Shown: positions 10,200 to 56,498 of the stretch, one piece after another | How positions within the stretch are numbered: the first letter of the stretch is position 1 | How the letters are laid out: every line of letters starts with the position of its first letter | Assembly (NCBI RefSeq): GCF_000429645.1 | Contig: NZ_AUCG01000016.1 | Coordinates: forward strand, 620,001 to 684,000 | DNA length: 64,000 nucleotides | Direction of reading: 5' to 3' | DNA from: Niveispirillum irakense DSM 11586 | Lineage (GTDB): Bacteria; Pseudomonadota; Alphaproteobacteria; Azospirillales; Azospirillaceae | The notes under the pieces: model-generated | What the model was told of the DNA's origin: nothing | The model's database searches: none | Seen by the model: the letters and a program-made list of their open reading frames with translations, nothing else | Translations under genes and position numbers: made by a program

Positions 10200-11495
10200 T
10201 CAGAAGCCCAGCGTGATCAGAACGGACGCGACATCCTCCGGCCGGCCCAGGCCGGGCAGGGAGACATCCGCCGCCGCGACCGACAGCAGCCGCTGTGCAG
10301 AAGCCAGCGTGCCCGTGCTGCGGGCATAGGTCAGGATATCCTCCCGGTCCGGCAGGATATTCAGGTGGCCATGGCCATAGACCAGCACCGGCAGCACAAC
10401 CACACCCGGTTCCGTCTGCTCCACCAGGCTGGCCGCCCCCAGCAGGGCGCGCCAGCAGGCGGTGCGGACAGAGGCCGGCCGATCCGCCGTTTCAGCCGAC
10501 GACATTTCCGTGCCGCCAGCCCCCAGCGTCCAGGTCCGGCCGCACAAATCCTCCGTCGCCACCAGAACGACCAGGGATTTGCCGTCGCGCCGGCCGGTGC
10601 CAATGGCAACGATGCCGGAGCCGCGCGCCGTCTGCGGTGGCACCACGACACTATCCAGCCGTGTGCGCACCGCAGCCACCGTGGTGCCCACCGCGTGGCG
10701 CAAGGCTTCCGCCCCCGCTGGCTGGGCCAGCCGGTTCCAGGCGCCCATCACCAGGGCGGCAAGGGCAGTGGCTGAAGGGCCTGCCACGGGTGCGGGCGTC
10801 GGAGCCGGCACAGGCGCGGGAGCCTTGGCAAAAGCGGCAACCTTGTCTTCCAGCAGCCGCAGCCGCTGGTCCAGATCGGGGGGCAGTGCGGGAGAGGGGG
10901 CGCCATTGCCGCCGGCGCGGACATCGCTGCGCAAATCCCGCAGGTCAAGCTGCAGGTCGCGCACAGCGCCGACAACCCGCATCAGGCTTTCATGCACCTG
11001 CCCGATCACGGCGTTCAACTGGTCCTGGCCGACAAAGCCCCCCGTCGGCGACGGCAGCGACGGGGCATCGCCCTGCGCCAGGGTCTGACGGGCGGCTGCG
11101 ATCCAGGATTCCAGGCCCGCCACCCGGTTCAGCAGGTCGGAGGACAGTTTGGCCACCCGGTCCAGTTCTTCCGGATAACGGGTGACCTGCTGGCTGACCA
11201 CGCCGGTCAGATGGGCCAGCCGTTCCCGCAATTCCTGGATGGACTGGCCCAGGGCGTTGATCTTCATCGTCTCCGGCAGTTGCACCACCGCTGTGTGCAT
11301 CGCCGCCAGATCGGAACGGAAATCGCGCAGGCGCGTGCCGACATGCAGGGCCAGATCGCGGACGATCGTCTCGGCATAATCGAACGGATCGACCGCTTCC
11401 TGCAGCTCACCTGTCAAGGGCGGGGTCATGCTCGTCGCCGGGTCGGCGGCGGCGCTCTTCTGCCCGTCGGGGAGGTCGCTGGACGGCAGGCTCAT
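10200..11495 (-). CDS. Unknown protein with helical/coiled-coil N-terminal half
   Basis: A 431-residue protein I do not recognise. Residues about 30-210 are mostly long amphipathic helices with regular leucines and valines (such as LGQSIQELRERLAHLTGVVS and LMRVVGAVRDLQLDLRDLRS), so coiled coil is likely. A Pro/Ala linker (about 228-245) leads to a compact C-terminal part of about 180 residues rich in beta-type sequence, with SGIVAIGTGRRDGKSLVVLV and CWRALLGAASLVEQ. No signal peptide or membrane segment is seen. It overlaps the upstream gene by 4 nt (ATGA), so the two are almost certainly translated together and may act together. Confidence 0.75.
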   Translation of the reverse strand: MSLPSSDLPDGQKSAAADPATSMTPPLTGELQEAVDPFDYAETIVRDLALHVGTRLRDFRSDLAAMHTAVVQLPETMKINALGQSIQELRERLAHLTGVVSQQVTRYPEELDRVAKLSSDLLNRVAGLESWIAAARQTLAQGDAPSLPSPTGGFVGQDQLNAVIGQVHESLMRVVGAVRDLQLDLRDLRSDVRAGGNGAPSPALPPDLDQRLRLLEDKVAAFAKAPAPVPAPTPAPVAGPSATALAALVMGAWNRLAQPAGAEALRHAVGTTVAAVRTRLDSVVVPPQTARGSGIVAIGTGRRDGKSLVVLVATEDLCGRTWTLGAGGTEMSSAETADRPASVRTACWRALLGAASLVEQTEPGVVVLPVLVYGHGHLNILPDREDILTYARSTGTLASAQRLLSVAAADVSLPGLGRPEDVASVLITLGF

Positions 11496-12478
11496 GGGGC
11501 GGCCTCGCTGGAAGAAAGGTGGTCGGACAGGGCGGCCATCAGCCGGGCCCGGCGGTCTTCGGCATCGGTGCGTGTCAACCGGGGGACACCCGGCACCGTC
11601 GCGGCGGGCCGGGGGGCCGGCGGCGGCGGCGGCATGGGGGCCGGCGGCTCAGTGATCGTCACCGCAAGGGGGACCGTTTCCACCGGCGGGGCCGGGGGAA
11701 CGGGGGGGAGAGGGTCGAATAACGGTGCCGACGGGCGCGGCGGGTCCACCGGCTGGGGACGCGGCGGGCTGGCCGGTCCCAGCCGGGGGCGGGCCAGGGG
11801 CGGCGGCACAGGCGCAGGCTTGGCAGCCGGGGGGGGCGGCACGGGCGCCGGCGGCTGGGTGGGCCGGGGGGCCATCACGCCGGGGGCCGGGGTAGCCGGG
11901 GGCGGCATGACAGGGGGGGGTATTGGCGGCGGCGGCGGCGAGGGCCGGGCCACAGGCGCCAGCGGCGGCACCACCGGCATCTTCGGCGCGACCAGCGGGT
12001 TGAGCCGGCCCTTATCCGGAAAGGGGCCGCCAGCCAGATCATCCAACAGCTTGCGCAATGAGGCGATCCGGGTGCCCTTCATCGGTTCCACCCGGCGCTG
12101 TGCCCGGCCGATCAGGCCCGGTTCGGCGGAAAGCTGAAGGAAATTGGTCTGTTCCGCCGTCAATGCCTCCAGGCGGCGGGCCAGTTCATCCACCACATCC
12201 TGGCCGGCGACAAACCGTCCCAGCGTGTCCAGCGTGGCGGTGACCACAGTGGCATCGCGTACCGCGCGGGAGGAAAAGACAGGCCCATTGCTCCCGCCAT
12301 TTCCCGCATCCGTGTTTCCAGTCGGCACAGGGATGGAAATGGACTCGTCCCCCTCATCCGCTGTCGGGGCGCCATCCGGCTCCCCTTCCGGCGTCCCGGG
12401 GGACAATGTCAATGAACGTACAGGGGCCGCCGACTCAGGCCGGCGACCGCTCAACCGGCGCAGCAAAGTGCCCAGCAT
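11492..12478 (-). CDS. Unknown protein with long proline-rich region
   Basis: A 328-residue protein of unknown function. After a basic N-terminus (MLGTLLRRLSGRR) and an acidic, disordered stretch comes a small helical region (about 73-145, including VDELARRLEALTAEQTNFLQ). Residues about 160-300 are extremely Pro/Ala-rich with runs such as PPPPPIPPPVMPPP. The last 30 residues are charged and helical (TRTDAEDRRARLMAALSDHL). Proline-rich linkers of this kind usually span the periplasm or display binding sites, but no membrane segment or signal peptide is visible, so it looks cytoplasmic. It overlaps the following coiled-coil gene by 4 nt. The frame is supported by steady codon bias. Confidence 0.7.
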   Translation of the reverse strand: MLGTLLRRLSGRRPESAAPVRSLTLSPGTPEGEPDGAPTADEGDESISIPVPTGNTDAGNGGSNGPVFSSRAVRDATVVTATLDTLGRFVAGQDVVDELARRLEALTAEQTNFLQLSAEPGLIGRAQRRVEPMKGTRIASLRKLLDDLAGGPFPDKGRLNPLVAPKMPVVPPLAPVARPSPPPPPIPPPVMPPPATPAPGVMAPRPTQPPAPVPPPPAAKPAPVPPPLARPRLGPASPPRPQPVDPPRPSAPLFDPLPPVPPAPPVETVPLAVTITEPPAPMPPPPPAPRPAATVPGVPRLTRTDAEDRRARLMAALSDHLSSSEAAP

Positions 12479-12882
12479 CCCGCTTCCCTCCGTCCCGTCC
12501 AGGCGGACGGGCCATTACGAACAGCCGCGCACCGTTCCCGGTCCCGGCAAGCGGCCCACCCCGCCAAACCTGAAACCGGAACCTTTCCATCCATCCGCAT
12601 CACAAGGGGCGCACTCCGGCCTGACCATCCTTTTGCCATTATCGTTATCACGTCATCCGGTTGTGATGCAATTTCGTGGCTTCCGCAGCAGCCACTATAC
12701 GAAAGGATTATTTTTTTCGAGAAGCCTGTTGCACCGGACGGGCAAGAGCCACATGCTCGTCGATAGAGAAGAAACACCTGATCGGTTCTAATTTGGAACC
12801 GTGATGCAAACCAAATATTAACAACCTAAACCTACTCTGGCGGTCGGGTCCGCAGCCTGAAAGATGATGGTCTAGCGTTTCG
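12479..12882. other. 404-nt intergenic region with divergent promoters
   Basis: It separates the proline-rich gene (minus) from the phytochrome-like gene (plus) and must hold both promoters. The part 12620-12840 is relatively AT-rich, with a T-run at 12710-12717 and a weak 6-bp inverted repeat CGGTTC/GAACCG near 12782-12800. No RNA gene, repeat or known operator was recognised. Confidence 0.5.
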
Positions 12883-15633
12883 ATGGTCCAGCCGACTGCA
12901 TCCTCCCTCCCTGCAACCACCACGCTCGCACCGGGCCAGCAGCCCTGGCCGGGATTGATGGATCACATCCAGGCCCATGGCTGGCTGATGATCCTGGATC
13001 GGGATGACATCATCCGCCATGCCAGCGCAAATCTGGCTCTCCTGGCCCATCAGCCTTTGGAAATGATTCTGGGTCGTCCGGTGCGGCAGGTCATCGGGCG
13101 CGTTGCCGCACAGGCGTTGAGCCGGGCGCGCCGGCATGATGGCGATGGCGGCGTCGGTCCCCTGACCGTAACCGTGGTGACCGGTAAAGGCCGGGTGCGC
13201 GCCGTCATGCAGGGCCATCTGGAGACCTATGGCCTGGTTTTGGAACTGGAACCGGTTTTCCAGGGGGACAGCAGCCTGGTCGCCGCTTCCTTCGGTGCCG
13301 CCATCCGCCGTTACCGCCACCTGCAGGATATCGAAGCCCTGGCCAGGGCCGTCACCCGTGACGCCCGGCTGCTGACCGGCTTTGATCACGCGATGATGCT
13401 GCGGATCGGGGATAAGGGCCAGCCGGTGATGATCGCCAGCGATGCCGCGACGGAGGTGCCGCCGCTTCCCGCGCCCGCGTTCGAGCCCCTGTCACCGGCC
13501 CTGCAATATCTGCTGGAATTGAACCGGGTGCGCCTGCTGGCCGACATTCCCGTTCCACCTGTTCCCGTGCTTCCCGGCCATGATCCGGCAAGCGGCGCCC
13601 CCATTGCCCTGCCGCGCGCGGTGCTGCGCCCGGCCACCCATGGGTTTGCCGAGTTTGCCAGCGCGCGCGGGGTGCGATCCGTGCTGATCGTGTCGCTTCT
13701 CTGCGCCGGGCGGCTTTGGGGATATATCTGGTGTGAAAACCGGCGCCCCCGCCATGTCAACGTGCCGGTCCGCTCCGTCTTTGAGGGGTTGGGGGAAATT
13801 GCCGCCGCCCAGATCGCAGCGATGGAAGAACGCGATGCCGGGCATGCCCGCACCCGCGCCACCCGCGCACTGACCCGGCTGGGCCGGCTTATGCAGGGCG
13901 AGATGGATATCGTCCAGGCCCTGGCGCGGTTGCACCCGGTGCTGGAGGAAATTCTTCCCCATGATGCGCTGGCCATCACCATTGAAGGCAAAAGCTGGCA
14001 ATCCCCCGATACCCTGCCGGCCAGCCATTGGCTGGAACAACTGGACCGGCAGGACAGCCCCCGGCATGAGGGGTTGCGCTGGGGCAGCCGCGATTTAAAC
14101 GGGCTTTCCCGGGAAGAGAGCGGGCTGACCGATATCCTGGATATCGACCTGCAGGGCGGCCATATCCTGATCTTGCGCCGGGGCCAGCAGCCCTGGTCAA
14201 CGGCGGAACTGGAAGCCGCCCACGAATTGCATCATCTGCTGGCCGAACGGCGGGCCGAACTATACCGCCGCAATGCCGAGCGGCAATTGCACCGCCTGAC
14301 CAATTTCGACCGGGCCACCGGCCTGCCCAACCGCGCGCATCTGCTGCGCGCGCTGGAACAGGCGCTGGAGGTGGAGGCCGATGTCGCGGTCACCGTGCTG
14401 GGGCTGGACCGGTTCCGTGTGCTGAAGGCAGCCTTTGGCGAGGAGGCAGCCGACCGGCTGCTGGCCGCCGTCGGCCAGCGTCTGCGTGAGCATCTGGACG
14501 GGGGCGATCTGGTTGCCCGGATTGATACCGGTGAACTGGCCGTGCTTCTGCTGGAAGAGGGGCCGCAACGGATTGACCGGCTGACGGCCAGGGTCCGCGA
14601 TGCGCTGCGCGCGCCGATCAGCCTGGATGGGCGTGACATTTTCGTCAGCGCCAGTGTGGGCGTGGTGGTGACGGGTTCCGATGCCGCCGGCATGCTGCGC
14701 GACGCGGAAATCGCCAGCGCGGAGGCTGAAGCGGCCGGCGGGGGCCGGCGCGTGTTCGACGACGCCATGCGCACGCGCCTGACCGAGCGGCATGAGATTT
14801 ATGACCGGCTGCGGCAAGCGATCTATATGGATGAAGGCGTTTATGCCGCCTATCAGCCCATCATCCGCCTGTCCGATGGCCATCTGGCCGGTTTTGAGGC
14901 GCTGGCCCGCTGGACGGATGGGGAGCGGGGCAATGTTCCCCCCTCCATCTTCGTTCCTGTAGCGGAAGAGACGGGCCTGATCATGGCACTGGGAAACCAT
15001 ATCCTGGTGCAGGCCTGCCGGCAGGTGGTGCGCTGGAACCAGGGCCGGGTTGGCAAGCCGCTTTATATTTCCGTCAACCTGTCGCCCTACCAGTTCGACC
15101 CGTCACGGCTGGATCTGGTGCGCTGGGTGTCGGGCGTGCTGGACATGACCGGGTGCCGGCCGGAATGGCTGCAGCTTGAAATCACCGAAAGCGGGCTGAT
15201 CGGCCAGGGCGGGGTGGCGCCGGAACTGCTGCGCGGGCTGCGTCAGTTGGGCGTGGGGCTGGCGATCGATGATTTCGGTACCGGCTATTCCTCCCTGGCC
15301 TATTTGCAGGAACTGCCCGTCGATACGATCAAGATCGACCGCAGCTTCGTGGAGCGGATGATGGAGAGCGAGAAGGGCAAGGCCCTGATCACAGCCATCC
15401 TGCATATTGCCGGCATCATGGAATATGGCGTGGTCGCCGAAGGGGTGGAAACGGTCAGCCAAGCCGATCTGCTGCGCCAGATGGGCTGCGAACGCGCCCA
15501 GGGCTATCATTATGCCCGCCCCCTGACGCCCGACGCCGCAACGGCGATGGTGCGGGAAATGGCTGGTCTGGTGGCAATCCAGGGCGGGGAAGCCGCAGCG
15601 CCGCCGCCGATGCTGGACCTGCGGACCGCATGA
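12883..15633 (+). CDS. Phytochrome-like PAS-GAF-PHY protein with degenerate GGDEF and intact EAL domain
   Basis: A 916-residue cytoplasmic protein. Residues 25-330 follow the bacteriophytochrome core: DHIQAHGWLMIL (PAS), LLTGFDHAMM (GAF start), RVRLLADI, an AVLRPATH segment and GRLWGYIWC. A PHY-like region (about 340-455) ends in GGHILILRRGQQPW. The GGDEF domain (about 470-630) has DTGEL (548-552) in place of GGDEF, so cyclase activity is unlikely. The EAL domain (about 650-900) has FEALARW, VNLSP, EITES, DDFGTGYSSL, KIDRSF and AEGVET, so c-di-GMP hydrolysis is likely. The biliverdin-binding cysteine is missing: the first cysteine is residue 274. It may sense something other than red light. 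Confidence 0.9.
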   Translation: MVQPTASSLPATTTLAPGQQPWPGLMDHIQAHGWLMILDRDDIIRHASANLALLAHQPLEMILGRPVRQVIGRVAAQALSRARRHDGDGGVGPLTVTVVTGKGRVRAVMQGHLETYGLVLELEPVFQGDSSLVAASFGAAIRRYRHLQDIEALARAVTRDARLLTGFDHAMMLRIGDKGQPVMIASDAATEVPPLPAPAFEPLSPALQYLLELNRVRLLADIPVPPVPVLPGHDPASGAPIALPRAVLRPATHGFAEFASARGVRSVLIVSLLCAGRLWGYIWCENRRPRHVNVPVRSVFEGLGEIAAAQIAAMEERDAGHARTRATRALTRLGRLMQGEMDIVQALARLHPVLEEILPHDALAITIEGKSWQSPDTLPASHWLEQLDRQDSPRHEGLRWGSRDLNGLSREESGLTDILDIDLQGGHILILRRGQQPWSTAELEAAHELHHLLAERRAELYRRNAERQLHRLTNFDRATGLPNRAHLLRALEQALEVEADVAVTVLGLDRFRVLKAAFGEEAADRLLAAVGQRLREHLDGGDLVARIDTGELAVLLLEEGPQRIDRLTARVRDALRAPISLDGRDIFVSASVGVVVTGSDAAGMLRDAEIASAEAEAAGGGRRVFDDAMRTRLTERHEIYDRLRQAIYMDEGVYAAYQPIIRLSDGHLAGFEALARWTDGERGNVPPSIFVPVAEETGLIMALGNHILVQACRQVVRWNQGRVGKPLYISVNLSPYQFDPSRLDLVRWVSGVLDMTGCRPEWLQLEITESGLIGQGGVAPELLRGLRQLGVGLAIDDFGTGYSSLAYLQELPVDTIKIDRSFVERMMESEKGKALITAILHIAGIMEYGVVAEGVETVSQADLLRQMGCERAQGYHYARPLTPDAATAMVREMAGLVAIQGGEAAAPPPMLDLRTA

Positions 15634-15707: not shown

Positions 15708-15770
15708 ATCAACGCAGGCGGCGTGTCCCCCGGTGTGAAAACCGGGTCGCGCATGCTACATAGGGCCATC

Positions 15771-16499
15771 ATGCATCGCTTCGCCAACCCTGCCCGCTTC
15801 CTGCGACTGGCCGCCGTGATCCTGCCCTGGACCACGGGTGCCGCGCTCATCCTTTTCGGTGTCGGCCTGTATCTGGCCCTGTTCGCCAGCCCGCCCGACT
15901 ATCAGCAGGGCGACACGGTGCGCATCATGTATGTGCATGTGCCCGCCGCCTGGATGAGCATGTTCACCTATAGCAGCATGGCCGTGGCCGCCGCCTGCGC
16001 CCTGGTCTGGCGCCATCCGCTGGCGGAGGTATATGCCCGTGCCGCCGCCCCCATCGGGGCTGGCTTCACCCTGCTCTGCCTGGTGACCGGCAGCCTGTGG
16101 GGAGAGCCGATGTGGGGCACCTGGTGGGTGTGGGATGCGCGGCTGACCAGCGTGCTGATCCTGTTCTTCCTGTATCTGGGCTATATGGCGCTGGCCAATG
16201 CCTTTGATGATCCGGTGCGCGGCAACCGGGCCGGCTGCATCCTGCTGCTGGCAGGTGCGGTGAATGTGCCGATCATCAAATTCTCGGTCGATTGGTGGAA
16301 TACGCTGCACCAGCCGGCCAGTGTGCTGCGCATGGGCGGGCCAACCATCCATGGTGACATGCTGTGGCCGCTGCTGATCATGGCGCTGGCCTTCCAGACC
16401 TATTTCATGGCCGTGGTCATCCTGCGTATGCGGGCAGAACTGGCCGACCGCAAAATCCAGACGCTGCGCATGGCCCGCGCGGCATCCGGCAGTGCCTGA
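15771..16499 (+). CDS. ccmC: Cytochrome c maturation protein CcmC (haem handling)
   Basis: A 242-residue inner-membrane protein with six hydrophobic segments. It carries the tryptophan-rich WWD motif (WGTWWVWDARLTS, about 121-133) that presents haem to CcmE in the periplasm. Conserved histidines occur in YVHVPAAW and in TLHQPAS. The start MHRFANPARFLRLA is the common alphaproteobacterial N-terminus; the frame remains open to 15723 but without a better ribosome site. It is the first ccm gene here; ccmA and ccmB, which normally complete the CcmABCD release complex, are not upstream. Confidence 0.95.
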   Translation: MHRFANPARFLRLAAVILPWTTGAALILFGVGLYLALFASPPDYQQGDTVRIMYVHVPAAWMSMFTYSSMAVAAACALVWRHPLAEVYARAAAPIGAGFTLLCLVTGSLWGEPMWGTWWVWDARLTSVLILFFLYLGYMALANAFDDPVRGNRAGCILLLAGAVNVPIIKFSVDWWNTLHQPASVLRMGGPTIHGDMLWPLLIMALAFQTYFMAVVILRMRAELADRKIQTLRMARAASGSA

Positions 16500-16509
16500 C
16501 GGGGCGGTG

Positions 16510-16785
16510 ATGAGCGAGTTTTTTGCCATGGGCGGCTACGCGCCCTATGTCTGGGGCAGCTACGGGCTGGCCTTTCTGGTGCTGCTGGTGCTGCTGGTGG
16601 TCAGCCTGCTGTCGCTGCGCCGGACGGAAGCGACCCTGCGCACGCTGGAGGCGGGCCTGCCCCGCCGTCGCCGGCGCAAGGAGACGGCGCAAGTGGCCGG
16701 CCAGGATGATACTGGCCTGCTGGCCATGACCGGTGGGGCGACCACCGTGCAGGGACCAGCCGGCAATGGTGGAGGCGAGCGATGA
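16510..16785 (+). CDS. ccmD: Haem exporter accessory protein CcmD
   Basis: A small 91-residue protein with one membrane helix (about 17-36, FLVLLVLLVVSLLSL), preceded by the family signature GGYAPYVWGSYG. CcmD helps release haem-loaded CcmE from CcmABC. A basic patch (PRRRRRKE) follows the helix on the cytoplasmic side, as expected. It is longer than the roughly 50-70 residues of most family members because of a Gly/Thr-rich tail. ATG 16510 gives the standard opening MSEFFAMGGYAPY. It starts 10 nt after ccmC and overlaps ccmE by 4 nt. Confidence 0.92.
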   Translation: MSEFFAMGGYAPYVWGSYGLAFLVLLVLLVVSLLSLRRTEATLRTLEAGLPRRRRRKETAQVAGQDDTGLLAMTGGATTVQGPAGNGGGER

Positions 16786-17252
16786 TGACGCGCAAGAAGC
16801 GCCGGCTTTACATGCTGGGTCTGGCGATGCTGGGCCTGGGCACCGCCACGGCCCTGACGCTTTCCGCGTTTGAGGAGAATGTCGCCTATTTCTTCTCCCC
16901 CTCCGATCTGGCGGCCAAACCGCCGGGGGATAAGCGCATCCGCGTCGGCGGTCTGGTGCAGGATGGCAGCGTGACCCGGCCGGATGATGTGACGACCAAT
17001 TTCACCATCACCGATGGCGCGCAAAGCGTTGCCGTCACCTTCTCCGGCGCCCTGCCTGACCTGTTCCGGGAAGGACAGGGCGTGCTGGCGGAAGGGCGGA
17101 TGCGCCCGGATGGCGTGTTCCAGGCCGCTGAGATCCTGGCCAAGCATGATGAAAATTACATGCCCAAGGAAGTGGTCGATGCCTTGAAGAAGGCTGGCGA
17201 GTTCCGTCCCGAGCCGCCGGGCAAGCCCGTCTATGGCGGGGCCGGTTCCTGA
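16782..17252 (+). CDS. ccmE: Haem chaperone CcmE
   Basis: A 156-residue protein with an N-terminal membrane anchor (about 9-28) and a periplasmic beta-barrel. The haem-attachment histidine is H122 in AKHDENYMP, with the haem-ligand tyrosine Y126. CcmE binds haem covalently from CcmC and passes it to CcmF. The barrel stretches (IRVGGLVQDGSV, TNFTITDG) fit the family. It overlaps ccmD (ATGA). After its stop a 125-nt gap with a strong hairpin separates it from ccmF. Confidence 0.95.
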   Translation: MMTRKKRRLYMLGLAMLGLGTATALTLSAFEENVAYFFSPSDLAAKPPGDKRIRVGGLVQDGSVTRPDDVTTNFTITDGAQSVAVTFSGALPDLFREGQGVLAEGRMRPDGVFQAAEILAKHDENYMPKEVVDALKKAGEFRPEPPGKPVYGGAGS

Positions 17253-17314
17253 TCTGCGGGTCCGGTGGCGCGGCCCTGTGGCGCACGGGCATCGACGCTG
17301 AATGATGGTAGGAA

Positions 17315-17362
17315 CGGCTGGGGGTGACCAGGTTCGCCCCCAGCCGGCTCCGGATGTTTTTT
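17315..17362 (+). terminator. Hairpin plus T-run inside the ccm operon, before ccmF
   Basis: A perfect 10-bp repeat, CGGCTGGGGG (17315-17324) and CCCCCAGCCG (17337-17346), is followed after 10 nt by TTTTTT (17357-17362). The delayed T-tract makes it a weak terminator or an RNA-stability hairpin that could lower or separate expression of ccmFGHI from ccmCDE. Confidence 0.5.
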
Positions 17363-17377
17363 GAGGGAAGAGACGAG

Positions 17378-19369
17378 ATGATCCCCGAGATTGGTCATTA
17401 CGCGCTGGTGCTGGCGCTGCTGCTGGCCATCATCCAGGGGACATTGCCGCTGGCCGGCGCCGCCCGGCGCAATACCGCCTGGATGGAAGCCGGGCGCGTG
17501 GCCGCTTTCGGCCAGTTGGCCCTGGTCTTCATCGCCTTCTTCGCCCTGATGTGGGCCTATGTCGTTTCCGATTTCAGCGTCCTGAATGTGGTCCAGAACA
17601 GCCATAGCCAGAAGCCGATGCTGTATAAGGTGGCCGGCGTCTGGGGCAATCATGAAGGCTCGATGCTGCTCTGGGTCATGATGCTGGGCCTGTTCGGCGC
17701 CGCCGTGGCCGGCTTTGGCCGCAACATCCCGCCAACGCTGAAGGCCCGCGTGCTGGGGGTGCAGGGGTTGATCGGGGTCGGTTTCCTGCTGTTCATCCTG
17801 GCGACCAGCAACCCCTTCATCCGCGTGCTGCCGGCCCCGCCGGATGGCAATGACCTGAACCCGCTGCTCCAGGACCCCGGCCTCGCCTTCCATCCGCCCT
17901 TCCTCTATCTGGGCTATGTCGGTTTCTCCGTCGCCTTCAGCTTCGCGGTGGGCGCCCTGATCGAAGGGCGGGTTGATCCCGCCTGGGGCCGCTGGGTGCG
18001 GCCCTGGACGCTGGTGGCCTGGGCATCACTGACCCTGGGCATCGCCATGGGGTCCTGGTGGGCCTATTACGAATTGGGCTGGGGCGGCTGGTGGTACTGG
18101 GATCCGGTGGAAAATGCCTCCCTGATGCCGTGGCTGGCCGGGACCGCCTTGCTGCATTCCGCCATCGTGGTGGAAAAGCGCGACGCGCTGAAAACCTGGA
18201 CCATCCTGCTGGCCATCCTCACCTTCTCCCTCTCCCTGATGGGCACCTTCCTGGTGCGGTCGGGCGTGCTGACCTCCGTCCATGCTTTCGCCGTCGATCC
18301 CAAGCGCGGTGTCGCCATCCTGGCGCTGCTGGGGCTGGCAACCGGGGGCGGGCTGCTGCTGTTCGCCATGCGGGCGCATGTGCTGAAGGTGGGCGGCCTG
18401 TTCGCCCCGGTCAGCCGTGAAGGGGCGCTGGTGCTGAACAATCTGCTGCTGTCGGTTTCTACCGCCGTGGTGCTGATCGGCACGCTGATGCCGCTGGTGC
18501 TGGATGCGTTCGGGCACAAGATTTCCGTCGGCGCGCCCTATTTCAATTTCATCACCCCGTTCCTGGCCATCCCGCTGGTGCTGGCCATGGCGCTCGGCCC
18601 CTTCCTGCCCTGGAAGCGGGCCGATCTGGCCGGTGTGCTGGGCCGGCTCTGGGTGGTGGCGCTTTTCACCCTGGCGGCGGTGATGGTCGCCCTGTGGCTG
18701 CAGGGCGTACGCCCGGTGATGGCACTGGTCGGCATCGGGCTGGCCGCCTGGGCCTTTATCGGTGCCTTCTGGGAAGTGGCGGACCGGGTGCGCCTGTTCC
18801 GTATCCCGCTGGGGGAAAGCCTGACACGGGCCGGTGGCCTGCCACGCGGGGCCTGGGGCACGGCCCTGGCCCATGCCGGCATGGGCATCGCCATTGCCGG
18901 CATGATCGGCACCAGCTTCTGGCTGACAGAAGATGTGCGCGTGATGGCGCCGGGGGCCAAGGCCACCATCGCCGGCTATGAACTGACCCTGGAGAAGGTG
19001 GAACAGGGGCGTGGCCCCAATTTCACGACCGAGATGGGTTATTTCACCGTACGCACCCTGAATGGTGACATGGTGGGCACCCTGACGCCGGAACGGCGCT
19101 GGTATCCCGTGGCCCGGATGCCAACCACGGAGGCCGCCATCCACACCACCTTCTTCGCCGATCTTTATGCCGTGCTGGGGGAGCCCAGCGCCGACGGGCG
19201 TGGCTGGGTGGTGCGGCTTTACCATCATCCGCTGGTGCCCTGGATCTGGATCGGCTCCCTGGTGATGGTGGCAGGCGGGCTGCTCAGCCTGTCTGACCGG
19301 CGCTTACGGGTGGGCGTGCCGCAGCGTCGCACAGCATCCCTGCCCACCGCCATCCAACCCGCCGAATAA
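17378..19369 (+). CDS. ccmF: Cytochrome c haem lyase CcmF
   Basis: A 663-residue polytopic membrane protein that joins haem to apocytochrome c. It contains the WWD domain (SWWAYYELGWGGWWYWDPVE, about 227-246) and the conserved histidines of VWGNHEGSMLLW and AFHPPFLYLGYVG that hold haem b and the incoming haem. The soluble periplasmic part lies near the C-terminus (about 525-625) before the last helix. ATG 17378 is used because MIPEIGHYALVLAL is the normal N-terminus and GAGGGAAG lies upstream; an in-frame ATG at 17324 would start inside the hairpin. ccmG follows after 13 nt. Confidence 0.95.
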   Translation: MIPEIGHYALVLALLLAIIQGTLPLAGAARRNTAWMEAGRVAAFGQLALVFIAFFALMWAYVVSDFSVLNVVQNSHSQKPMLYKVAGVWGNHEGSMLLWVMMLGLFGAAVAGFGRNIPPTLKARVLGVQGLIGVGFLLFILATSNPFIRVLPAPPDGNDLNPLLQDPGLAFHPPFLYLGYVGFSVAFSFAVGALIEGRVDPAWGRWVRPWTLVAWASLTLGIAMGSWWAYYELGWGGWWYWDPVENASLMPWLAGTALLHSAIVVEKRDALKTWTILLAILTFSLSLMGTFLVRSGVLTSVHAFAVDPKRGVAILALLGLATGGGLLLFAMRAHVLKVGGLFAPVSREGALVLNNLLLSVSTAVVLIGTLMPLVLDAFGHKISVGAPYFNFITPFLAIPLVLAMALGPFLPWKRADLAGVLGRLWVVALFTLAAVMVALWLQGVRPVMALVGIGLAAWAFIGAFWEVADRVRLFRIPLGESLTRAGGLPRGAWGTALAHAGMGIAIAGMIGTSFWLTEDVRVMAPGAKATIAGYELTLEKVEQGRGPNFTTEMGYFTVRTLNGDMVGTLTPERRWYPVARMPTTEAAIHTTFFADLYAVLGEPSADGRGWVVRLYHHPLVPWIWIGSLVMVAGGLLSLSDRRLRVGVPQRRTASLPTAIQPAE

Positions 19370-19382
19370 GGGCCGGACCCGC

Positions 19383-19925
19383 ATGTCGCCCCATACCAAG
19401 CACCGCCTGCTGCTGCTGCTGCCCTTCACCATCTTTCTGGTGCTGGCCGCCTATTTCGCCATCGGGTTGACGGGCGATCCGTCCAAGCTGCCCTCCAACA
19501 TGATCAACAAGCCGGTGCCGGAATTCGCCCTGCCGGGGCTGGATGGCGGGCCGGGTCTGGCCAGCACCGACCTGAAGGGGCAGGTGCGGCTGGTCAATAT
19601 CTTCGCAAGCTGGTGTGCGCCCTGCCGGGTGGAACATCCGCTGCTGGTGCGGCTGGCGCGGGAAGAAGGGATCACCATCCACGGCATCGCCTATAAGGAC
19701 AAGCCGGTCGATTCGCAGGCATTTCTGGACAGTCTGGGCAACCCCTATACCAGCGTGGGCAGCGACCGGGATGGCCGGGTCGGCATCAATTTCGGCGTTT
19801 ATGGCGTGCCGGAAACCTATGTCATCGATAAGGAAGGCCGCATCCGCTATCGCCATGTCGGGCCGCTGATGGCCTATGACATGGACGAAGTGATCCTGCC
19901 GATGCTGCGGGAACTGGCGAAATGA
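19383..19925 (+). CDS. ccmG: Thiol:disulfide interchange protein CcmG/DsbE
   Basis: A 180-residue thioredoxin-fold protein tethered to the inner membrane by one N-terminal helix (about 9-27). The active site is WCAPC (77-81), and the family-specific GVYGVPETYVID segment is present. It reduces the CXXCH cysteines of apocytochrome c, or the disulfide of CcmH, in the periplasm before haem attachment. It overlaps ccmH by 4 nt, so translation is coupled. Confidence 0.95.
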   Translation: MSPHTKHRLLLLLPFTIFLVLAAYFAIGLTGDPSKLPSNMINKPVPEFALPGLDGGPGLASTDLKGQVRLVNIFASWCAPCRVEHPLLVRLAREEGITIHGIAYKDKPVDSQAFLDSLGNPYTSVGSDRDGRVGINFGVYGVPETYVIDKEGRIRYRHVGPLMAYDMDEVILPMLRELAK

Positions 19926-20455
19926 AGAGGTTTTTCTGTTCCCTCAAGCGCCGTTCCGCGATTGGTTTGACCACGCTTGCCCTGGCCTCCCTGCTGTCCG
20001 CCCCCGCCTTCGCGGTGATGCCGGACGAAAAACTGTCCGACCCGGTGATGGAGGCGCGCGCGCGCGACATCTCCAAGGAACTGCGCTGTCTGGTCTGCCA
20101 GAACCAGTCCATCGATGACAGCAATGCCGATCTGGCGCGCGACCTGCGGGTGCTGGTGCGCGAACGGCTGGTGGCCGGCGACAGTGACCAGCAGGTTCTG
20201 GCCTATGTCACCGACCGGTATGGTGATTTCGTGCTGCTGCGCCCGCCAGTGAAAAGCTACACGATCGCGCTGTGGGCCGGCCCCTTTGTCGTGCTGCTGC
20301 TGGCCGGTCTGGGCACCGCGTTTTATCTGCGCCGCCGCCGCCACGAGGTGGAAACCACCACCCTGCCGGAATTGACGGCGGAAGAAGAAACACGGCTGCA
20401 GGCCCTGCTGGATGATCTGGGCACTGACAAGGGACAGCGGGGGCCGTCAGCATGA
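19922..20455 (+). CDS. ccmH: Cytochrome c maturation protein CcmH
   Basis: A 177-residue protein with a signal peptide ending near PAFA (about 31). The LRCLVCQNQSI redox motif (54-64) acts in apocytochrome reduction, and a C-terminal membrane helix (about 112-133) follows. In E. coli CcmH this domain is fused to a TPR part; here the TPR part is the separate next gene, ccmI, the usual alphaproteobacterial arrangement. It overlaps both neighbours by 4 nt. Confidence 0.95.
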   Translation: MKRFFCSLKRRSAIGLTTLALASLLSAPAFAVMPDEKLSDPVMEARARDISKELRCLVCQNQSIDDSNADLARDLRVLVRERLVAGDSDQQVLAYVTDRYGDFVLLRPPVKSYTIALWAGPFVVLLLAGLGTAFYLRRRRHEVETTTLPELTAEEETRLQALLDDLGTDKGQRGPSA

Positions 20456-54932: not shown

Positions 54933-56498
54933 ATGGAAGATGATTTCCTGTTCGCGGCGGATGGTTCCCTGAAGGGTGAGCCGTCGCCAGCACTGGAAAA
55001 CCCATCACCCCTGACAGCGCCCTGGCGTCTGCTGGTCGTGGATGATGACCCGGAAGTCCATTCCGTCACGCGCTATGCGCTGCGCAAGGTCCGCTTCCGC
55101 GACCGGGGGCTGGAACTGCTTTATGCGTTCAGCGCAGCAGAGGCCCGTGACGTGCTGGCACGCGAAGCCGATATTGCCCTGGTCCTGCTGGATGTGGTGA
55201 TGGAGACGGATGATGCCGGGCTGCGGCTGGTCCATGCCATCCGCGACGAACTGGGCAATAATGCCGTTCGCATCATCCTGCGCACCGGACAGCCGGGACA
55301 GGCACCGGAAGAACGGGTGATCGTCGATTACGACGTGAATGATTATAAGGCCAAGACGGAGCTGACGGCCCAGAAGCTGTACACCACCGTCATCGCGGCC
55401 CTGCGCGCCTATGATGATATCATGGCGATTGAGGCCAACCGCCGCGCCCTGCGCCGGATGATCGCGCTGGATGACCGGCTGCGCCCGGATATGGGCCTGG
55501 AAGCCTATGCCCAGACCATGCTGGAACAGACGGGATCGATCCTGGGCACCCAGGTGGATGGGCTGGTCTGTGCCGTGGTGCCGGACGCGGACGGGTCGCT
55601 GGACGCGCCGCGCTATCGCCTGCTGGCTGCCAGTGGCGCCTATGCCGGCACGGCGCTGCCCCTGCCCGGCACCCCCCTGCTGGACACGCTGGCAATGATG
55701 GAAGCTGGCGGCCAGACATGGGTGGAGGGGCGCCGGGCCTGCCTGCACCTGCCCGGCGCGGATGGAACCCTGTTCCTGACCCTGCTGGAGTGCGACCGCC
55801 GGCTGGAGGGGCCGGATGCCGATATATTGGGCGTGCTGGCCGCCAAGCTGGCCACCGGCATGGCCAATATCGTGCTGTATGAACGGCTGCGCCGCGCCAA
55901 TGCCGACCTGCGCGGCATTACCCAGACGCTGGAAAGCCGGGTGGCGGAACGCACGCGCGAACTGATCGAGGCGAATGCCAAGCTGCTGAAGCTGGCCAGC
56001 ATCGACAGCCTGACCGGCGTCATGAACCGCCGCCGCTTCATGGAAGTGGCGGAGGTGGAGCGGGAGCGGGCCTGCCGCCATCGCCGGCCCCTGTCCCTGC
56101 TGCTGATCGACCTGGACCGGTTCAAGCTGATCAACGACAATTACGGCCATCATGCCGGCGACCGGGTGATCTGCCACGCCGTGGACCGGATCGCCGAGAC
56201 GCTGCGCACCGCCGACAGTCTGGCCCGCTATGGCGGGGAGGAACTGGTGGTGCTGCTGCCGGAAACCGGGCTGGAAGCGGCGGGCCGGGTGGCCGAAAGG
56301 GTGCGCGCCGTCATCGACAGCACCCCGATCCTGCATGAAGGCCACGCCATCCCGCTGACCATCAGCATCGGTGCCGCCGAATGGCAGGGGGAGAGCGAAA
56401 ATCTGGTCGCCCTGCTGGACAGGGCCGACCGCGCGCTTTATTGCGCCAAGCAGTCCGGCCGCAACCGGGTGGAACTGGCCGGCGAACAGATGGCGTGA
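54933..56498 (+). CDS. Response regulator with DUF3369 and active-type GGDEF domain
   Basis: A 521-residue protein. The receiver domain has LLVVDDDPEVHSV and the phosphoacceptor in VLLDVVMETDD. The DUF3369 region begins with VDYDVNDYKAKTELTAQKLY. A coiled link (RRANADLRGITQTLESRVAE) leads to the GGDEF domain with RYGGEEL and an intact I-site RTAD just before it. It is thus a likely diguanylate cyclase, feedback-inhibited by c-di-GMP and controlled by phosphorylation. No histidine kinase lies nearby. ATG 54933 follows GGTGGGTGGG; ATG 54909 is less likely. It complements the phosphodiesterase at 12.9 kb. Confidence 0.92.
   Translation: MEDDFLFAADGSLKGEPSPALENPSPLTAPWRLLVVDDDPEVHSVTRYALRKVRFRDRGLELLYAFSAAEARDVLAREADIALVLLDVVMETDDAGLRLVHAIRDELGNNAVRIILRTGQPGQAPEERVIVDYDVNDYKAKTELTAQKLYTTVIAALRAYDDIMAIEANRRALRRMIALDDRLRPDMGLEAYAQTMLEQTGSILGTQVDGLVCAVVPDADGSLDAPRYRLLAASGAYAGTALPLPGTPLLDTLAMMEAGGQTWVEGRRACLHLPGADGTLFLTLLECDRRLEGPDADILGVLAAKLATGMANIVLYERLRRANADLRGITQTLESRVAERTRELIEANAKLLKLASIDSLTGVMNRRRFMEVAEVERERACRHRRPLSLLLIDLDRFKLINDNYGHHAGDRVICHAVDRIAETLRTADSLARYGGEELVVLLPETGLEAAGRVAERVRAVIDSTPILHEGHAIPLTISIGAAEWQGESENLVALLDRADRALYCAKQSGRNRVELAGEQMA

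Follow-up and report, generated by a model that had tools for sequence, protein, structure and literature searches.

What can a phytochrome-like protein respond to when the residues that hold its pigment have been lost? The question is raised by a gene located in a stretch of 64,000 nucleotides of Niveispirillum irakense DSM 11586 (NCBI RefSeq assembly GCF_000429645.1, contig NZ_AUCG01000016.1, positions 620,001 to 684,000 of the forward strand), hereafter the window, which encodes a protein of 916 amino acids with the domain order PAS-GAF-PHY, degenerate GGDEF and intact EAL. A preliminary description, made from the letters alone, had proposed a phytochrome scaffold with a lost bilin site and an intact EAL output, reused for another signal. 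The first part of this proposal stands, on the absence of the site in all 14 members of the protein family, the missing tongue, the predicted fold and the distribution of heme oxygenase; the reuse for another signal is what we infer from them. Probably, in our judgement, a phytochrome scaffold has here come to regulate the hydrolysis of cyclic dimeric guanosine monophosphate (c-di-GMP) independently of light, with a different input. As far as can be read from the sequences, the cysteine, the pocket and the tongue are lost, the EAL residue set is kept and the neighbourhood is conserved. The gene and its parts are the following.

12883..15633, + strand: phytochrome-like GGDEF-EAL gene, 916 amino acids
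12964..13257, + strand: PAS domain, residues 28-125 (Pfam PAS_2, E 7.6e-08), with no bilin cysteine ahead of it
13327..13812, + strand: GAF domain, residues 149-310 (Pfam GAF, E 4.5e-08)
13486..13488, + strand: P202, aligned with the aspartate of DIP
13645..13647, + strand: F255, aligned with pocket histidine H260, H253 lying two columns before
13732..13737, + strand: C284 and E285, the latter aligned with pocket histidine H290
13837..14247, + strand: PHY-like region without tongue, residues 319-455
14178..14179, + strand: place of the missing 40-column tongue by alignment, between R432 and R433
14302..14742, + strand: degenerate GGDEF domain, residues 474-620, with the signature DTGEL at 14524-14538
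14806..15522, + strand: EAL domain, residues 642-880, whose catalytic set is invariant in 14/14 members

The N-terminal half is recognizably that of a phytochrome. The PAS_2, GAF, GGDEF and EAL domains score above the Pfam cut-offs and PHY below its own (17.2 bits vs a cut-off of 27), the best solved-structure match of the N-terminal 476 residues is a bacteriophytochrome (E 1.9e-30, far beyond chance), and the motifs IQAHG, LTGFD, RVRLLAD and LWG.I.C, on which the preliminary description relied, are present. Its reading of the lost site is confirmed in most respects: the only cysteines are at 274, 284, 712, 758 and 869, hence none precedes residue 274, and PASDIP and CHH are indeed replaced by PAFEPL and CEN. 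The open frame counts 921 amino acids, only five residues more upstream than the called start, and therefore a wrong start hiding the bilin cysteine of the window protein is ruled out; in other family members some stop-to-stop frames contain upstream cysteines, with no CxxEPIH-type segment before IQPHG. One statement has to be corrected, namely that H253 alone of the pocket histidines is kept. This residue stands opposite the proline of SPxH, two columns before the histidine, and the true column is occupied by F255, a placement on which the alignments with RpBphP3, with phytochromes from the window's bacterial family and with BphG1-type proteins agree; with F255 in the H260 column and E285 in the H290 column, both pocket histidines are lost. 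Nor does H253 qualify as a conserved pocket residue or as a ligand of heme, since its column varies among R, G, H, L, P and S across the family.

This family is narrow and sharply delimited. When 82 genomes of the order were searched with a sensor-half profile, 14 proteins scored 570-778 bits and the best of the remaining matches 197 bits. The 14 belong to 13 genomes of one bacterial family, probably the Azospirillaceae, comprising all 11 of the window's genus and one in each of two other genera; one genome of the window's genus (G074) contains two enzyme copies (L044 and L045), one lying at the edge of a short contig. In a sample of the class (385 genomes, best four candidates per genome scored) there were three matches at E 1e-60, all in the window's genus. 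A full-length profile, run on a class sample with the best two candidates per genome scored, found only GGDEF-EAL matches outside the genus, a search in which PadC-EALs could be missed. A search for related loci with the window protein alone returned one locus, matching in GGDEF only.

The N-terminal cysteine, the DIP aspartate, H260, H290 and PRxSF are absent in 14/14 members and present in 5/5 BphG1-type proteins and in the window genome's own phytochrome. In the H260 column nine members have F, four L and one V; in that of H290, 11 have E and the remaining three Y, F or S, one each. The window protein does contain the letters DIP, at residues 221-223, but outside the aspartate column. The comparison was extended to the 23 non-family matches, hereafter ordinary phytochromes, of which 17 come from L022-L038, many of these being near-copies, so that invariance leans on them: of 42 invariant positions, seven are kept in all 14 members and nine are absent in all 14. 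Seven of the nine correspond to residues that line or hold the bilin, namely Y176, D207, Y216, H260, M267, S272 and H290 in Deinococcus radiodurans numbering, in which the P202 column is that of D207 of DIP. Four residues, W34, G117, R142 and R145, are peculiar to the family, being found in 14/14 members vs 0/23 ordinary phytochromes.

The distribution of heme oxygenase (PF01126), and thus the probable supply of biliverdin, points in the same direction. The enzyme was found in 6/7 family genomes with an ordinary PHY protein and in 0/6 without one (one-sided Fisher probability 7/1716 = 0.004, kinship ignored), and it lies within about 6 kb of the ordinary phytochrome, on the same contig, in 5/6 of the genomes having it, the window genome itself encoding one. 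Six genomes (G066, G068, G069, G070, G072 and G074) have neither an ordinary PHY protein nor heme oxygenase, and in G066 the phytochrome-like enzyme itself is the sole PHY match. No heme oxygenase was found in 7/13 genomes. The phytochrome-like enzyme is thus retained in genomes that probably do not make biliverdin. Furthermore, three heme oxygenase queries gave no match in the window, nor in the 13 stretches that surround the other members (only about 5 kb in two cases), and as a control detected the gene at the locus of the window genome's own phytochrome; at BphG1-type loci an annotated heme oxygenase adjoins the gene in 5/5 of those fetched, out of 17 such rows.

The second loss concerns the tongue of the PHY domain, the lever that passes the signal of chromophore isomerization to the output. 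A PHY-like region does follow the GAF domain, as had been described, but its whole tongue hairpin, on which the preliminary description was silent, is missing: 40 tongue columns of the alignment, filled with 37-40 residues in six controls, are empty in 14/14 members, in all of which the strand ending at R432 (window numbering) runs directly into a PW or W segment. Pfam PHY over the 13 genomes reported three family members, covering only positions 3-69 or 152-176 of 183. The structure predicted for the window protein from an alignment of 20 rows, six of them ordinary phytochromes, has a mean predicted local distance difference test score (pLDDT) of 86.1 and a predicted template modelling score of 0.79; it has the PAS-GAF-PHY fold and, compared with the Protein Data Bank (PDB), all of the 50 matches listed are phytochromes (best E 6.9e-32), including 8bor, DrBphP without its tongue. 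Hence the fold is predicted to have been kept, with the lever from chromophore to output missing.

The output half tells the opposite story for its two domains. The GGDEF signature is lost in 14/14 members, reading DTGEL (residues 548-552) in the window protein, and the EAL motif, which begins at residue 672, is EAL in 13 of the 14 and EVL in one; both had been read correctly in the preliminary description. E672, N732, E766, E769, D796, D797, K817, E853 and Q873, which form the catalytic set of EAL phosphodiesterases, are invariant in 14/14, so that hydrolysis of c-di-GMP would be expected. A derivation of this half from the BphG1-type PadC-EALs, whose domain order is the same, is not supported. 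In the GGDEF-EAL tree, which comprises 9/14 family members and 4/5 fetched PadC-EALs, the family groups (99/99) with six non-phytochrome alphaproteobacterial proteins and not with the BphG1 types, and a tree forced to join it with the latter is 20.8 log units worse, with a borderline p of 0.046 in the approximately unbiased test. The nearest output half, that of L161 (41% identity), is likewise without the GGDEF signature, and by profile no phytochrome-type input was found in the nine non-phytochrome GGDEF-EAL proteins examined, L161 among them. Being closer to non-phytochrome proteins, the output half may have been joined to the same kind of input in a separate fusion; the origin of the sensor half is not resolved by the PAS-GAF tree (50 rows, 9/14 family members).

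Two unassigned genes transcribed divergently from the enzyme gene form its conserved neighbourhood.

12479..12882, no strand: stretch of 404 bases between the divergent genes, as defined by the gene ends, a probable control region
11492..12478, - strand: conserved neighbour of 328 amino acids, proline-rich, function unassigned, adjoining 13/14 members
10200..11495, - strand: conserved neighbour of 431 amino acids, function unassigned, in the same cluster in 11/14 members

The exceptions (1/14 and 3/14) are cut by contig ends, and in G055 the homologue of the shorter neighbour has one in-frame TGA in the match. Neither protein (10200-12478) has a Pfam or NCBIfam match; the longer one is helical in its N-terminal half and its C-terminal domain is predicted with confidence, the mean pLDDT being 65.9 overall, and no PDB match reached E 0.001. 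The pair occurs also in the seven genomes of another genus (g11), close together in six and on separate contigs in G063. No member of the enzyme family was found in these seven genomes, so that the pair is independent of the enzyme. In one of them (L091) it lies beside an aconitase-like gene, recognized by eye. Downstream, 89 bases after the enzyme gene, genes for cytochrome c maturation from ccmC to a ccmH-like gene, named by eye, occupy 15723-20455 (+). These were rejected as a conserved partner: they follow 5/14 members only, the contig of L045, which ends about 300 bases downstream, being uninformative. A promoter scan found 2 sites vs 0.9 in shuffled sequences and a terminator scan 2 vs 2.4. 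A second GGDEF-like match in the window lies at about 55902-56393 (+; G000:C2:675902-676393), in a frame of 551 amino acids (E 2.8e-11).

The following mechanism would accommodate these observations. The PAS-GAF-PHY input would descend from a phytochrome to which biliverdin could no longer be attached through the usual cysteine, the residues that hold and protonate the pigment and the tongue that passes its isomerization to the output having gone, so that the protein would be blind to light. The module would have been kept under purifying selection as a scaffold, probably dimeric, and the new trigger would be either a small molecule or a partner protein, which might be encoded by one of the conserved divergent genes. 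From there the signal would pass along the PHY helix and reach the EAL domain via the degenerate GGDEF domain, and the EAL domain would hydrolyse c-di-GMP; downstream of the tongue, the module most likely works as in phytochromes, by helical spine and linker, under another trigger. In its full form, a natural non-light phytochrome whose tongue-less and pocket-less module reads a new small-molecule or protein signal, perhaps via the divergent pair, and controls the EAL domain, the proposal has in our estimate a little less than an even chance. Selection supports the maintenance of the sensor: in eight close pairs, which share members and hence are not independent, the ratio of nonsynonymous to synonymous substitution rates (dN/dS) is 0.06-0.22 in PAS, 0.04-0.21 in GAF, 0.02-0.18 in the PHY-like region and 0.01-0.11 in EAL. 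The sensor domains of close pairs are thus under purifying selection, and their low values speak against decay.

Four points weigh on the other side. R249, which corresponds to the arginine that binds the propionate (R254), is retained in 14/14 members, so that some bilin-like ligand is conceivable. G055 has an ordinary phytochrome and no heme oxygenase match, so the screen may miss some. The six ordinary phytochromes among the input rows may have guided the predicted fold. Finally, in the more distant pair formed by the window protein and L040, dN/dS is 0.35 in PAS, 0.38 in GAF, 0.79 in the PHY-like region and 0.31 in EAL, at a distance where the method is weak, and the value of 0.79 may reflect relaxed constraint in the window's lineage.

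This last value, together with the drift of the pocket (F, V or L in the H260 column, E, Y, F or S in that of H290) and the universal loss of the GGDEF signature, would be at home in the main rival explanation, according to which PAS-GAF-PHY receives no signal and only dimerizes or places the enzyme, with an EAL domain that is constitutive or controlled by guanosine triphosphate (GTP) through the GGDEF remnant. Control of EAL by GTP through degenerate GGDEF domains occurs in other proteins. However, a scaffold without trigger fits poorly with sensor-domain dN/dS of 0.02-0.22 in the eight close pairs and with the four family-own residues, and we regard it as unlikely. The protein could instead be a redox sensor like RpBphP4, with thiols in its GAF domain reading the redox state and governing the EAL output, as C284 in 11/14 members and the cytochrome c maturation genes behind the enzyme gene of the window might suggest; but C284 is the ordinary phytochrome residue (23/23) and hence no new feature, most members have V, I, M or some other residue in place of C274, and the ccm genes are downstream in 5/14 only, which makes a redox sensor improbable. 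The family might also preserve an older PAS-GAF-PHY module in which bilin and tongue were absent from the outset, and this would agree with its forming one clade on a long stem in trees rooted at midpoint only. Its confinement to three genera of the order (82 genomes) and, in the class sample, to the window's genus makes such an ancestral state very improbable, and the bilin-free condition would rather be derived. We give hardly any credence to a photoreceptor that still binds biliverdin or another bilin non-covalently and works without the tongue, in spite of R249 and the heme oxygenase of the window genome, since nine of the 42 invariants and the tongue are absent in 14/14 members and heme oxygenase was not found in 7/13 genomes.

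The light-independent regulator of c-di-GMP hydrolysis that we propose has to be placed among known proteins. The closest published cases are the redox sensor RpBphP4 and HmPadC+14. RpBphP4 of Rhodopseudomonas palustris is reported, in work of Vuillet from 2007, to be a bacteriophytochrome with kinase output that lost its chromophore and took up another sense, going 'from light to redox sensor'. HmPadC+14 of Halomonas meridiana, a motif-less homolog, is a single sequence that clusters with IsPadC, was not purified and is named PadC, not PadC-EAL (PMC9587094). BphG1 and other PadC-EALs (Cereibacter sphaeroides) share the PAS-GAF-PHY, GGDEF, EAL order, and PadC-EALs are defined by N-terminal Cys, DIP, PRxSF, GGDEF/GGEEF and EAL/ExL (PMC9587094). 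In the family the Cys, the DIP aspartate, PRxSF and GGDEF/GGEEF are each found in 0/14 and EAL/ExL in 14/14; four of the five points failing, the window protein is not a PadC-EAL, despite the identical architecture. The BphG1 types, unlike the family, have the Cys, DIP, both histidines, the tongue, GGDEF and an adjoining heme oxygenase (5/5), and the output halves of the two do not group. As to broader classes, the fold of a bacteriophytochrome is predicted and its bilin attachment and pocket residues are absent, and the catalytic residue set of an EAL phosphodiesterase is present by sequence. L161 and five other alphaproteobacterial GGDEF-EAL proteins have the nearest output halves, but no phytochrome-type input was found in them; 8bor is an engineered D. 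radiodurans DrBphP fragment without PHY tongue, whereas the family has lost its tongue in natural proteins. No description of the family was found in the literature searched, consisting of open-licence papers only and hence weak evidence, nor is it mentioned in the parts searched of a survey of Azospirillum GGDEF/EAL proteins (PMC5845226), of PMC9756655 and of PMC6532209.

Other phytochrome-like proteins with an incomplete bilin site were observed in a tree of 80/84 proteins, four fragments having been dropped. Five short proteins of Azospirillum (genus g3; L148-L152, frames of 618-807 amino acids) group in a single clade (100/100) and have neither the bilin cysteine nor DIP nor PRxSF; their profile matches end near position 342-349, so that the PHY part may be missing. 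Four proteins of genus g4 (L132, L140, L141 and L142; 916-981 amino acids) form another clade (100/99) without DIP and PRxSF; three of them lack the bilin cysteine, and in L142 a cysteine is present near its usual position.

Phytochromes serve as a model of long-range signalling through a protein under the control of a single bound pigment. If the reading of the window protein as a natural non-light phytochrome is true, this bacterial family would have lost the bilin site, or parts of it, repeatedly, as in the five-protein clade of genus g3 and in three of the four proteins of the genus g4 clade. A conserved family that has dispensed with both pigment and tongue would help to separate the parts of a phytochrome that read the pigment from those that carry the signal, and the annotation of such proteins as light sensors would mislead. 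The 14 proteins would thus offer a defined set of orthologs for learning what the phytochrome fold may sense other than light.
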